From the IMG/VR virus record IMGVR_UViG_3300034064_000912, positions 1 to 64,000 of that record: DNA of 64,000 nt. One strand, given 5' to 3'. Source of the DNA: a virus. Of the stretch, positions 42,444-47,189 are shown in pieces; the stretch's first letter is position 1; every line of letters begins with the position of its first letter. Both the position numbers and the translations under genes were made by a program. The notes under the pieces were generated by a model. That model was not told the origin of the DNA. It made no database searches and saw only the letters and a program-made list of their open reading frames with translations.

Positions 42444-43042
42444 CCTCTATCTTTCAGACATTATCAGAAAAAGCACAAAATGCTAAGATAAATCCAAAGA
42501 ATGCAATTGTATCACGGGAATGGTATAGAAATACAGCTGCTAAGATTCAACAAATAAACAATAACCGTGTTATAGATCCTAAAAATGTTAGAAGTAATCT
42601 AAATACTCAAAATATTGGTCAAATGTTTATGTTCTTTTATGATCCTAAAAATAAACAATCTCTTCCATATTATGACAGATTTCCTTTAGTATTTCCTGTA
42701 GAACTATATTCAGATGGTTTCCTTGGAATTAATTTACATTATTTGCCACACAAATACAGAGCAAATCTAATGGATGCTTTATACTCAACTATAAATAATA
42801 ACAAGAATGATAAAACTACACATCTTAGAATAAATTACGAAATATTAAGGTCAGCATCTAAAATGAGATATTTTAAGCCATGCTTAAAGAGATATCTATC
42901 AGCACATGTACTTCAGAAATTTCTATACATAGATCCTGAAAACTGGGATAAGTGTCTAATGCTTCCTACAGAACGTTTTGCTAAAAAGAGTAAGTCATAT
43001 GTTCAAGCTGAAAGCACACGTATGGTAGCTGGAAGACTATAA
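42437..43042 (+). CDS. 2: Probable DNA end protector gp2
   Basis: 201 residues. The central pattern MFMFFYDPKNKQSLPYYDRFPLVFPVELYSDGFLGINLHYLP followed by FKPCLKRYLSAHVLQKFLYI resembles T4-like gp2, which stays on the DNA ends and blocks host RecBCD. In T4 gp2 and gp4 are also adjacent. The protein is shorter than T4 gp2 (274) and the match is from memory of the motif, so it is only moderately sure. Confidence 0.6.
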   Translation: MVTSIFQTLSEKAQNAKINPKNAIVSREWYRNTAAKIQQINNNRVIDPKNVRSNLNTQNIGQMFMFFYDPKNKQSLPYYDRFPLVFPVELYSDGFLGINLHYLPHKYRANLMDALYSTINNNKNDKTTHLRINYEILRSASKMRYFKPCLKRYLSAHVLQKFLYIDPENWDKCLMLPTERFAKKSKSYVQAESTRMVAGRL

Positions 43043-43836
43043 TGTTTAATGTAGCAGATTTCAAAAGCTATCTATCAGGAACAGGCACTCTACCTACAAA
43101 CAGATTTTCTGTAGAGATTCCTGTACCAAGAGTTTTATTTGGTGCAGAAGTAGTAGTAAATAACTGGAGAAGACCAATGCCAGGCTTTACTGAAGATTTG
43201 CAGTTTAGAGCAGAATCTATTACTGCACCTGGTGTTTCATTAGATATGACTAATGTCAATAGATATGGTATTGGTCCAATTCAGAAATTTCCATTTAATG
43301 CTAATTTTACACCAGTTTCTATAACATTTTTAGCTGATAAAGATAGTCTTGTTTGGATATTCTTTTATAACTGGCTAAACAACATTTTTTCATATAGTCA
43401 TGATGATACAAATCCAAATGCAGACTTTTTAAGATATCGTGCTAACTACATGGTAGACTATGTAGTAGATCCTAAAATAAATGTATATGATTATGATAAA
43501 GTATTGTCTACTACTATACAACTTATCGATGCTTATCCAATAAGTATGAATGATATAAATTTATCATGGAGTGATAATAATCAACTGATGCGTATAACAG
43601 TGACATTTGCTTATCGTCACTGGAGAATAACAAATGCTGTAATGGCTGATAATTCTACCAAGAGTCCTGGGGTTGCATCACTTAGTATTCCACAGAGATC
43701 AAATCCATTAAGTACTACAAAATATTCATCAAATACATTTACAAATACTCTTGGTGAAGAAGTATATACCGGCGGTGCCGGTGCATCAAGAGGCAATCGT
43801 AATAGAGCTATTAGAACAATTAATAATCCGGATTAA
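43042..43836 (+). CDS. 54: Baseplate tail-tube initiator gp54
   Basis: 264 residues (T4 gp54, 320). It has a tail-tube fold: LPTNRFSVEIPVPRV...FRAESITAPGVSLDMTNVNRYGIGPIQKFPFNANF and WSDNNQLMRITVTFAYRHWRI. It nucleates gp19 tube polymerisation on the baseplate. The start overlaps the upstream stop (TAATG). The last 45 residues are Ser/Asn/Gly-rich. Confidence 0.82.
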   Translation: MFNVADFKSYLSGTGTLPTNRFSVEIPVPRVLFGAEVVVNNWRRPMPGFTEDLQFRAESITAPGVSLDMTNVNRYGIGPIQKFPFNANFTPVSITFLADKDSLVWIFFYNWLNNIFSYSHDDTNPNADFLRYRANYMVDYVVDPKINVYDYDKVLSTTIQLIDAYPISMNDINLSWSDNNQLMRITVTFAYRHWRITNAVMADNSTKSPGVASLSIPQRSNPLSTTKYSSNTFTNTLGEEVYTGGAGASRGNRNRAIRTINNPD

Positions 43837-43855: not shown

Positions 43856-44566
43856 ATGACATTACCTAAAATACAGCATCCTACATTTAAAATTGTTGTT
43901 CCATCTACTAAGAAACAATTATTATTTAGACCATTTTTGGTAAAAGAAGAAAAAATTCTTCTTATTGCTAAAGTTGGTGAAGATTCAACTGATATTTTAT
44001 CAGCAATAAAACAAGTTGTAAATAATTGCTGTGAAGAAAAGAACTTCAATATTAATAAACTAACTATTTTTGATATTGAATATATCTTTTTAAAGATTAG
44101 AGCTAATTCTGTAAGTAATAAGGTAAATCTTACTTTTAAAGATTTAGAAGATGAAAAAGAATATACTTTTGAAATTGATTTAAATACTGTAGAAGTAGAA
44201 TATCCAAAAAACGTTGATAACAGAATTATTATTGATGAAAAAGTGGGTATTATAATGAAGTATCCAAGCGCATCGATATATGATGATAAAGACTTTATGA
44301 AACTTGGTAAAGATTCATTATTTGAATTAATCATTCGATGCATAGACAAAATCTATAAAAATGATGAAATGTTTGATACTTCTAGTTACACAAGAGATGA
44401 ATTAATTGAATTCTTAGATAACTTGAATGTTAATACATTTGAAAAGATACAGCAATTTCTTACTGACTCACCTACTATGAGATATGTGATAAATTATAAA
44501 AATTCACTTGGAAATGATCGTAAAATTGAGCTAACGACTCTAACTGATTTTTTTACATTGCGCTGA
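43856..44566 (+). CDS. 26: Baseplate hub assembly protein gp26, with frameshift site
   Basis: 236 residues of the T4 baseplate gp26 family: N-terminal LPKIQHPTFKIVVPSTKKQLLFRPFLVKEEKILL and IIDEKVGIIMKYPS are typical. The start is ATG 43856 with AAGG upstream (a TTG at 43850 is unlikely). Just before the stop the mRNA reads GAT-TTT-TTT-ACA, a slippery T7 run, and an open frame continues in the -1 frame (separate entries). Placed before the tape-measure-like gene, this recalls lambda G/GT chaperones. Confidence 0.85.
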   Translation: MTLPKIQHPTFKIVVPSTKKQLLFRPFLVKEEKILLIAKVGEDSTDILSAIKQVVNNCCEEKNFNINKLTIFDIEYIFLKIRANSVSNKVNLTFKDLEDEKEYTFEIDLNTVEVEYPKNVDNRIIIDEKVGIIMKYPSASIYDDKDFMKLGKDSLFELIIRCIDKIYKNDEMFDTSSYTRDELIEFLDNLNVNTFEKIQQFLTDSPTMRYVINYKNSLGNDRKIELTTLTDFFTLR

Positions 44567-44617
44567 GTCATAATACTCTAGAAAATTATTATAAGACTTT
44601 ATTTGGTCTGGCTCAGC
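44548..44617 (+). promoter_or_regulatory. Predicted -1 ribosomal frameshift signal in gp26
   Basis: The heptamer T-TTT-TTT (44548-44554, zero frame GAT TTT TTT ACA) fits the X-XXY-YYZ slip rule. Seven bases later begins GCTGAGTC (44562-44569), which pairs with GGCTCAGC (44610-44617) in eight pairs including one G-T wobble; an inner ATAATA/TATTAT stem may stack in the loop. The zero-frame TGA stop (44564-44566) lies inside the stem. Slip site, spacer and stem all fit known programmed frameshifts. Confidence 0.7.
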
Positions 44618-44739
44618 ATCATAAATATAGTATTAACGATTTAGAGAATATTATACCATTTGAATTAGATATATATGTAAATATGTTGAAAGAATACATC
44701 CGTGAGCAAGAAGAAAAACAAAGAAACAGCGGAATGTAA
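44554..44739 (+). CDS. -1 frame extension of gp26 (gp51 position)
   Basis: After the slip at 44554 the frame reads YIALSHNTLENYYKTLFGLA and ends LKEYIREQEEKQRNSGM, 61 residues, giving a fusion of about 294. The frame has no start codon until a Met near its end (44683), so it is hard to explain except as a frameshift product. It occupies the position of T4 gene 51 but is much shorter and not clearly related. The stop overlaps the next ATG (TAATG). Its role would be a tail assembly chaperone extension, by analogy. Confidence 0.7.
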   Translation, partial: YIALSHNTLENYYKTLFGLAQHHKYSINDLENIIPFELDIYVNMLKEYIREQEEKQRNSGM

Positions 44740-47189
44740 TGAAAAAAAAACGCGGTAGGAAGTCAAAACAACAAACAGATAATTTCAACACAAAAGAAGG
44801 TGTATTGAAATTCGTTGATGATATGTTCGATAATAAAACATCAGCATCAAATTCATCTGACACGAAACAATCTGCTAAGATTATTGATATACGCAAATTT
44901 GCTCAAGAAAAAAGTAAAGGCGCAACAGGTGGAGCGCTTAAGCAATTAGATCCAATTATTCGTAAAATAAGCGGTGATTCTAAAAAAACTGACAGTGATA
45001 CTATAGCAATTAAAAAAAATATTAATGATAATGCTTCATCCATAAGACGTGTATCTTCTTCTGTAAGTATTTTAGAAACACGTGTAGGAGATTTAACCGA
45101 GCAATCTAATAAAACACTTGGTATGCTTGGAGATTTAATATCTGAATTCAATAAATTTAAAAATGAAACCAGTAAACAATTTGAAAAAATAAGTAAACAA
45201 TCAGATAGTTCAAGCGGTGGTATACTTGGCACTATAAGTGATTTAACATCTGGAATACAAAATAATAAATCCAAAGCAAATGCCGCAAAAGCTCCAGCCA
45301 AAACTGTATCTACAGCAAATAGTGCATTGAAATCGGTAAGCTCAGCCGCTAAACTTGGTCTTAAAACACTTCCTGGTGTTGGCGGCCTAGTAAGTGGTGT
45401 GGCTGAATATATGGAAGGTGGTGAATTAGGTCGTTCAATTGCAGCTGGTGCTGGCACTATTCTGGGTGGTATACTCGGCGGTGTTCTTGGATCTGCTCTT
45501 GGCCCTGTTGGTACCGCTGCTGGTGGTTTGGCTGGTTCAATGGCTGGGGAAGAATTAGCTAAATCTGGGTATGACTGGATTTTTGGTAAAAAGAAACCGG
45601 CAGAATCTGATGCTATAAAAAAATCGCGTGAAGATCGAGAAAAACCGAGTGATTCTAAGTCTGGCACATCAGTATCTTCTCCATCTCCTGGTATGACACC
45701 TGGTGTGACAACAACAACTGCTGGTAATGGATTATCTGGCGATAAATCGCAACCACAACTAAAAGGTATAGGCGAAACCGGTAATGCTACAGAAGCTATA
45801 AACTATTTTACACAAAATGGTTGGACACGCGAGCAAGCAGCTGGAATTGTAGGAAATCTACAGGCAGAGTCCGGACCAAATATGAAAACTGACTCAATAG
45901 GTGATGGTGGAAAAGCGTATGGTATAGCTCAATGGCACCCAGATCGTCAAGCAGTCTTTAAAAAAGTATATAATAAAGATATAAGAGAAGCTGGATTTAA
46001 AGAGCAATTAGCATATGTTAATTGGGAATTAAATAATACAGAAATCGCAGCTGGTCGTGCTTTAAGAGCAGCAAAAACTGCAGAAGAAGCTGCTGATTTA
46101 ATTAATAGACTATATGAAAGATCAGCAGATAAAACAGGTCAGCGCGCTGCTAATGCTATTGCTTTAATAAAAAATAATCAACAAGCAGTTTCACCAACAG
46201 CGGCGCCGGAAGGCACTTCAGCGCCAAATGCAGTGCCAGTAGAAACCGGTGTAGCTACACCTGGTGAAACTTTTGTTAAACCGGTTGCCGGTAATGCACC
46301 AGTAACTGGCAGTGATTCGTCAACAACCTCAACACAGGGTATTAACAAAGGTATTGCAGAAAAAATATCATCAATTGAATCTAGCTTTGGTAAACTTAGT
46401 GTAACAAGCGGTTATAGAGATCAAAAGAAAAATGATGCGGTGGGTGGCGCTAAAAATTCAGCGCATACAAGAGCAAATGCTGTTGATGTTACATTTAGTG
46501 GTGATGAAGTTAAGACATTAAAACTTGTAGAAATTGCATCTAAAGCTGGTATTGGTGGAATAGGTGTATACAAACCAGGTGTTGTACATCTAGATACAGA
46601 ATCACGCAGAGTATGGGGCCCAGATTTTACACAAAATTCAATTCCTAAATGGGCAGCCGGTGCATTACAGGCTCATATGACTGGGCAATGGGGTCAGTAT
46701 GATGCTACTGCTGCAGGAACAAAAGCAAATATTTCTGAAACAGGTAATACAAATACTACGAGTCCAGGCAGATCTACAACTTCTTTTGAAGGTAGTACTG
46801 CTGGTTTAAGTGGTATGAATTTCAAAGGAATGGGTGCAACTTCTCAAGGTATGTCATCGGGATCTATACAGACATCTAAAGCACAGATTCCTGGTCCACT
46901 TGGCATGGTAACTAGAACACCTGGAATAGGACAAATGGCTGGTCTAATAAGCACTGTGTCAACTGGTGGTTCATTAATACCAAAATCTCCAATGGATATG
47001 ATTGGCATGTTTGGAAGTATACTTAATGCTATAAGCAGCGGCAAAAATAATAATGTAAGAGCACCAAATCCTACATTTACACCAGATGCATATCAGAATA
47101 ATAATGTTCCGCCAGCTTTGCCTTCACAGCAAATACTAAGTGAACTATTTGATATGAAAAATGCACCAGATTATAATCCAGGTGGATAA
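44739..47189 (+). CDS. Tape-measure-like hub protein with lysozyme and M15 peptidase domains
   Basis: 816 residues. N-terminal 1-160 is basic then coiled-coil; 205-275 is a Gly/Ala-rich hydrophobic segment (GTILGGILGGVLGSALG) typical of tape measures. Residues about 350-480 form a phage tail lysozyme (GWTREQAAGIVGNLQAESG with catalytic Glu378; YGIAQWHP). Residues about 535-630 are an M15-type peptidase with ligands His576, Asp583 and His617 (SAHTRANAVDV, VVHLD). It would span the tube and open peptidoglycan at infection. The lysozyme, part of gp5 in T4, is carried here. A terminator follows. Confidence 0.8.
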   Translation: MKKKRGRKSKQQTDNFNTKEGVLKFVDDMFDNKTSASNSSDTKQSAKIIDIRKFAQEKSKGATGGALKQLDPIIRKISGDSKKTDSDTIAIKKNINDNASSIRRVSSSVSILETRVGDLTEQSNKTLGMLGDLISEFNKFKNETSKQFEKISKQSDSSSGGILGTISDLTSGIQNNKSKANAAKAPAKTVSTANSALKSVSSAAKLGLKTLPGVGGLVSGVAEYMEGGELGRSIAAGAGTILGGILGGVLGSALGPVGTAAGGLAGSMAGEELAKSGYDWIFGKKKPAESDAIKKSREDREKPSDSKSGTSVSSPSPGMTPGVTTTTAGNGLSGDKSQPQLKGIGETGNATEAINYFTQNGWTREQAAGIVGNLQAESGPNMKTDSIGDGGKAYGIAQWHPDRQAVFKKVYNKDIREAGFKEQLAYVNWELNNTEIAAGRALRAAKTAEEAADLINRLYERSADKTGQRAANAIALIKNNQQAVSPTAAPEGTSAPNAVPVETGVATPGETFVKPVAGNAPVTGSDSSTTSTQGINKGIAEKISSIESSFGKLSVTSGYRDQKKNDAVGGAKNSAHTRANAVDVTFSGDEVKTLKLVEIASKAGIGGIGVYKPGVVHLDTESRRVWGPDFTQNSIPKWAAGALQAHMTGQWGQYDATAAGTKANISETGNTNTTSPGRSTTSFEGSTAGLSGMNFKGMGATSQGMSSGSIQTSKAQIPGPLGMVTRTPGIGQMAGLISTVSTGGSLIPKSPMDMIGMFGSILNAISSGKNNNVRAPNPTFTPDAYQNNNVPPALPSQQILSELFDMKNAPDYNPGG

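Follow-up and report, generated by a model that had tools for sequence, protein, structure and literature searches.

The 3' end of a gp26 homologue in a T4-like tail module raises the question of whether a single gene at this locus is read into two proteins, as its zero frame closes shortly after a run of seven T residues and a -1 frame stays open from that run up to the next gene. The window (the whole stretch of DNA analysed, 64,000 nucleotides) comprises positions 1 to 64,000 of IMG/VR virus record IMGVR_UViG_3300034064_000912, with the locus studied situated at 43856-44739. The initial annotation, made from the sequence alone, had proposed a programmed -1 frameshift at this site giving an equivalent of the G/GT products of phage lambda.

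Gene layout and slip site in the window

The following features were identified, all on the + strand:

43042..43836, +, tail tube protein, upstream of gp26 (phrog_45, E 8.7e-35)
43856..44566, +, gp26 homologue of 236 aa, the putative zero-frame short chaperone (TAC-N like; PF12322, E 3.6e-53; phrog_150, E 6.7e-57)
44545..44547, +, TGA closing the -1 frame directly upstream of the slip site (sequence)
44548..44554, +, slippery heptamer T TTT TTT in gp26 phase (sequence; T TTT TTN in 253/253 relatives)
44555..44561, +, 7-nt spacer (sequence)
44548..44739, +, -1 frame extension, TAC-C like, a homologue of the T4 gp51 C-terminal domain (phrog_634, E 4.8e-24)
44562..44569, +, 5' arm of the putative stimulatory stem, GCTGAGTC, which includes the gp26 stop codon (folding, covariation in 54 relatives)
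44610..44617, +, 3' arm of the same stem, GGCTCAGC (folding, covariation in 54 relatives)
44739..47189, +, tape-measure-like protein (phrog_9570 (tape measure), E 9.8e-38), the start of which overlaps the stop of the extension (TAATG)

Direct reading of the sequence gave the 3' end of gp26 in the zero frame as GAT TTT TTT ACA TTG CGC TGA, with nine bases (44555-44563) between the heptamer and the TGA stop codon (44564-44566), in agreement with the phase, distance and spacer initially reported. The -1 frame opens at 44548 and ends with the TAA at 44737-44739, coding for Phe-Phe and 61 new residues (the new ones from 44554), and TAATG forms its junction with the next gene. A start further upstream is impossible for the extension, since the TGA at 44545-44547 blocks this frame immediately before the slip site. 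The first ATG/GTG/TTG within it was found to be the ATG at 44683, codon 45 of 63, which bears out the earlier description of an open frame without a start of its own.

The gp26 homologue scored 180.9 bits against PF12322 (T4_baseplate family, gp26/gp51), for which the curated cut-off is 24.5, and is thus a member of this family. It adjoins the tape measure gene on the upstream side, which is the position of a G/GT-type chaperone pair, and the match of the next gene to phrog_9570 upholds its initial naming as tape-measure-like. This protein was also found to possess Phage_lysozyme2 (PF18013, E 1.4e-27) and peptidase M15 (PF08291, E 1.1e-12) domains, suggesting a wall-cutting activity within the tape measure.

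Conservation of the slip site and selection on the -1 frame

Relatives were gathered through the extension, by scans of IMG/VR with three smaller extension alignments; the resulting 240 loci together with named phages provided 253 relatives with an intact gp26 (214 after dereplication). As one of these scans relied on an FFY pattern, the relatives it contributed were preselected for Phe-Phe, but not for codon choice. Close to the 3' end of gp26, T TTT TTN in the phase of this gene, with the extension in the -1 frame, was identified in all 253 relatives, among them phages S-PM2, Cr30, phiN3 and HTVC008M, and the comparison of gp26 3' ends that had been proposed as a check thus showed both slip site and -1 frame to be kept. 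The same arrangement was also found in phages S13, S-B68, BUCT608, OLIVR5, Astolliot, RL2RES and XG4. The dereplicated heptamers were TTTTTTC (133), TTTTTTT (78) and TTTTTTA (3), preceded in every case by a codon ending in T (GAT, AGT, AAT, TCT, GCT or ACT). Elsewhere in gp26, in-phase T TTT TTN occurred at 33 of 48,511 codons (0.07%), and only 4 of the 173 other Phe-Phe pairs within the same genes were T-TTT-TTY.

IMG/VR contig L174 (510-1213) was considered as an exception to this rule and ruled out, as its gp26 frame is broken mid-gene, upstream of a 3' end (AGT TTT TTT ATC TAG) where slip site and extension are intact; the broken frame is probably a sequencing or assembly error.

Separately, PhaxI (L268), Vibrio phage 1.255.O (L269) and Cygsa01 (L261), which represent two Ackermannviridae phages and one Pseudomonas phage, were observed to keep the -1 extension after gp26 without T TTT TTY, possessing ATT TTC or CTT TTT instead, with a TAATG overlap in Cygsa01 and Vibrio phage 1.255.O. 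Another slip site or re-initiation may be used by these phages.

The extension was found in 549 phage records (tblastn), with the best matches beginning at the slip-site Phe. Substitutions within it favour the third codon position of the -1 frame, and codons with a single change comprised 559 synonymous and 208 nonsynonymous cases, a synonymous share of 0.73 compared to the 0.19 expected if neutral. Within 58 codons, no stop was present in the -1 frame of any of the 214 relatives, while all 214 had stops in each of the other two frames. By these sequence measures, the extension evolves as a protein in the -1 frame under purifying selection. The sole point in favour of an assembly error, or of a decaying gene split by a frameshift mutation, is the split frame itself, and with 253 relatives sharing the arrangement and selection acting on the -1 frame of the extension, the chance of this explanation is negligible.

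In public records the extension is given as a separate small protein, named 'gp51' or 'baseplate hub assembly catalyst' and provided with a start that is internal or overlapping, which would require ribosomes to re-initiate close to the gp26 stop. This would be allowed by the ATG that 67 of the 214 relatives have at codon 5, and by the TAATG overlap of Cygsa01 and Vibrio phage 1.255.O, where T TTT TTY is lacking. However, the window offers no ATG/GTG/TTG before codon 45 of 63, seven of the 214 relatives have no ATG anywhere in the extension, and three have none of ATG/GTG/TTG. The heptamer is conserved where the position of a start is not, sequence conservation sets in at the slip-site Phe, ahead of any start, and T4 gp51 is a single chain. 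A separately started protein is accordingly considered very improbable, and ribosomal slippage the preferred explanation.

Putative stimulatory signals around the slip site

The stem of 8 pairs described earlier between 44562-44569 and 44610-44617 was found to be present, GCTGAGTC pairing with GGCTCAGC with one G-U. The 71 nt following the heptamer in the window gave a folding z of -3.25, with none of 200 shuffles being as good, and the 70 nt following the slip in the 214 relatives gave a mean z of -2.51, compared to -0.33 to -1.01 at four control positions. For the 54 relatives that share the geometry of the window (the window's class), the mean folding z was -3.59. In these relatives 92.8% of the cells of the named stem were paired, a value that fell to at most 36.6% when the arms were slid, and changes on both sides of the stem were seen in 16 cells compared to 5.3 in shuffled alignments, with none of 500 shuffles reaching the covariation score. 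One compensatory change is that of GAGTC/GGCTC to GAACC/GGTTC. The helix is broken in some relatives (e.g. L004), RNAalifold predicted no consensus structure on the alignment, and no match for the signal was found in Rfam; the structural support obtained from the alignment is restricted to the named 8-pair helix only.

The signal of dnaX consists of an upstream SD-like element, a heptamer and a downstream stem. A stem-loop 5-9 nt downstream, as in signals of this type, was found in the window (7-nt spacer, 8-pair stem), and the best SD pairing of the window (-1.9 kcal/mol) does not qualify as an SD-like element. Among relatives whose gp26 stops 3 nt after the heptamer (the main class), a strong SD-like element (GGAGGG) was identified upstream of the heptamer in 80%, compared to 17% at control places; in the window's class the figure was 2%, with controls at 12-17%. 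GGAGGG (e.g. L011, L008) lies some 9-10 nt ahead of the heptamer and codes for Glu-Gly, and near the main-class slip site GAG outnumbers GAA (107:38), a preference reversed in the rest of the gene (1231:3260).

The window's class formed one clade (99/92) in a tree of 82 gp26 proteins, and its nearest outside lineages possess the SD-like element, so that a single loss of this element is the simplest history. The sequences suggest that the window's clade lost its SD-like stimulator once and has a stronger downstream stem, a finding that may be new. Neither this swap of stimulators nor the covarying stem was found in the literature searched, which is weak evidence of novelty.

Slippage of the transcriptase on the T run, adding a base in part of the mRNA, would give the identical fusion frame with one inserted U, and the run is indeed homopolymeric. 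However, it consists of seven T here and six in most relatives, while the bacterial cases cited have nine A or T (PMC5009743), and both the downstream stem and the SD-like element of the other class fit ribosomal slippage better. Transcriptional slippage is thus given a very small probability, and -1 slippage by the ribosome is retained.

Probable chaperone identity, evolution and comparison with known systems

The AlphaFold model of gp26 (pLDDT 90) had as its top three PDB matches 3fgx (Z 8.4), HK97 gp13 (2ob9, Z 7.8) and YqbN (3klu, Z 6.6), with the next row at 2.8; as a Z around 8 lies in the zone that the structure tool calls middling, it is the specificity of these top rows that carries the weight. 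All three belong to the phage tail assembly chaperones according to PMC9603447, and with known TAC structures holding ranks 1-3, a TAC-N fold is indicated for gp26. Residues 1-95 of the model align over 84-86 residues of HK97 gp13, YqbN and RBSTP2171 (Z 6.6-8.4), from which gp26 differs in its length of 236 aa with a further domain and in an identity of 7-8%. Foldseek ranked 2ob9 first for this model, without significance, and returned no significant PDB match; a search for solved structures related by sequence gave none for gp26 and chance-level matches only for the extension.

Genes 26 and 51 of T4 are separate and divergent, and their products both match PF12322, with the PHROG 634 domain ('baseplate hub assembly catalyst') present in gp51 only (E 1.2e-23), and the -1 frame of the window belongs to this same PHROG (E 4.8e-24). 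The earlier suggestion that this frame takes the place of gene 51 was correct but understated, as the frame encodes a homologue of the gp51 C-terminal domain. In the alignment, the C-termini of gp26 proteins of the T4 type lie no more than a few residues from the slip position, while gp51 proteins continue past it into the extension, meaning that a natural one-chain fusion of both domains exists in T4.

It is highly probable that one gene of the window gives two tail assembly chaperones by -1 frameshifting, as a pair like lambda G/GT. The frameshift is supported by the conservation and codon choice of the slip site, purifying selection in the -1 frame and the covarying stem, and the analogy to G/GT by the tape measure neighbour, the chaperone fold and the two-domain chain of T4 gp51. 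We infer the slippage, its efficiency and the roles of both products as follows. The majority of ribosomes would terminate at the gp26 TGA, producing the short form, with a minority slipping back one base on T TTT TTT, aided by the stem-loop 7 nt downstream, to add 61 residues (fusion ...LTDFF-YIALSHN...). In lambda, the G part binds the tape measure protein and the T part the tail tube subunit, with neither found in the virion (PMC5009743). By analogy to gpG/gpGT, the gp26 part may coat the product of the tape measure gene that follows, tail tube subunits may be recruited by the extension, and both chaperones would leave before tail completion. Counting against slippage, poly-U heptamers shifted less readily than A_AAA_AAG in E. 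coli constructs (PMC5009743).

The initial annotation did not know such a frameshift as an established feature of T4 relatives. This needs amending, as citing papers credit Vladimirov, Gautam and Davidson 2022 with the chaperone identity of gp26/gp51 in T4-like phages; with reference to that work, poly-T -1 signals are stated to be known in T4-like TAC-N genes (phage Adele paper, PMC12846349), and some T4-like phages are stated to have a short gene and a fused long gene instead of frameshifting (PRFect, PMC10274946). From these credits, a frameshifted T4-like chaperone is not new as a kind.

In an unrooted tree of 29 chaperone domains, frameshifting types lay on one side of a branch (100/99) and two-gene types on the other, with gp51 copies forming one clade. 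The frameshifting type was seen in Kyanoviridae, Pootjesviridae, several unassigned genera and parts of Straboviridae, while among the genomes examined the two-gene type was confined to Straboviridae, which makes a single duplication from a frameshifting ancestor the simpler reading. On balance, we lean towards frameshifting being ancestral in the T4 superfamily, the two-gene type having arisen once by duplication inside Straboviridae, and the window's clade having rewired its signal once (SD-like element lost, stem strengthened) with slip site and products unchanged. In the pseudotevenvirus Cronobacter phage vB_CsaM_leN (L259:2501-3794), long (51) and short (26) genes were observed in tandem on one strand, possibly as a stage between one gene with a frameshift and the divergent pair of T4.

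The need of T4 for the hub 'chaperones' gp26 and gp51, whose function has long been unclear, may be explained by their being short and long chaperones that most relatives would make from one gene. The records examined for cyanophages, pelagiphages and rhizobial phages mis-annotate gp51, giving it as a short gene of its own that starts internally. Slip with SD-like element and stem, slip with stem only and two separate genes form a natural series for studies of chaperone ratio.

In the majority of the window's relatives the heptamer is flanked by an SD-like element, some 9-10 nt before it, and by a stem after it, an arrangement resembling that of E. coli dnaX, from which the window's own clade departs in lacking the SD-like element. 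The TAC genes of phage Adele (Vandenendeviridae) use a -1 frameshift at GTTTTT, a different motif in a different phage group (PMC12846349). Lambda G/GT, also situated directly ahead of the tape measure gene, gives a short product and a long one by frameshifting, whereas a poly-T heptamer with a stem is found here, the likeness being one of layout with function predicted from it. In T4 the homologous proteins are gp26, the short form, and gp51, a gp26-like domain with the same C-terminal extension, encoded by two genes with no slip where the window has one gene and a putative -1 slip.
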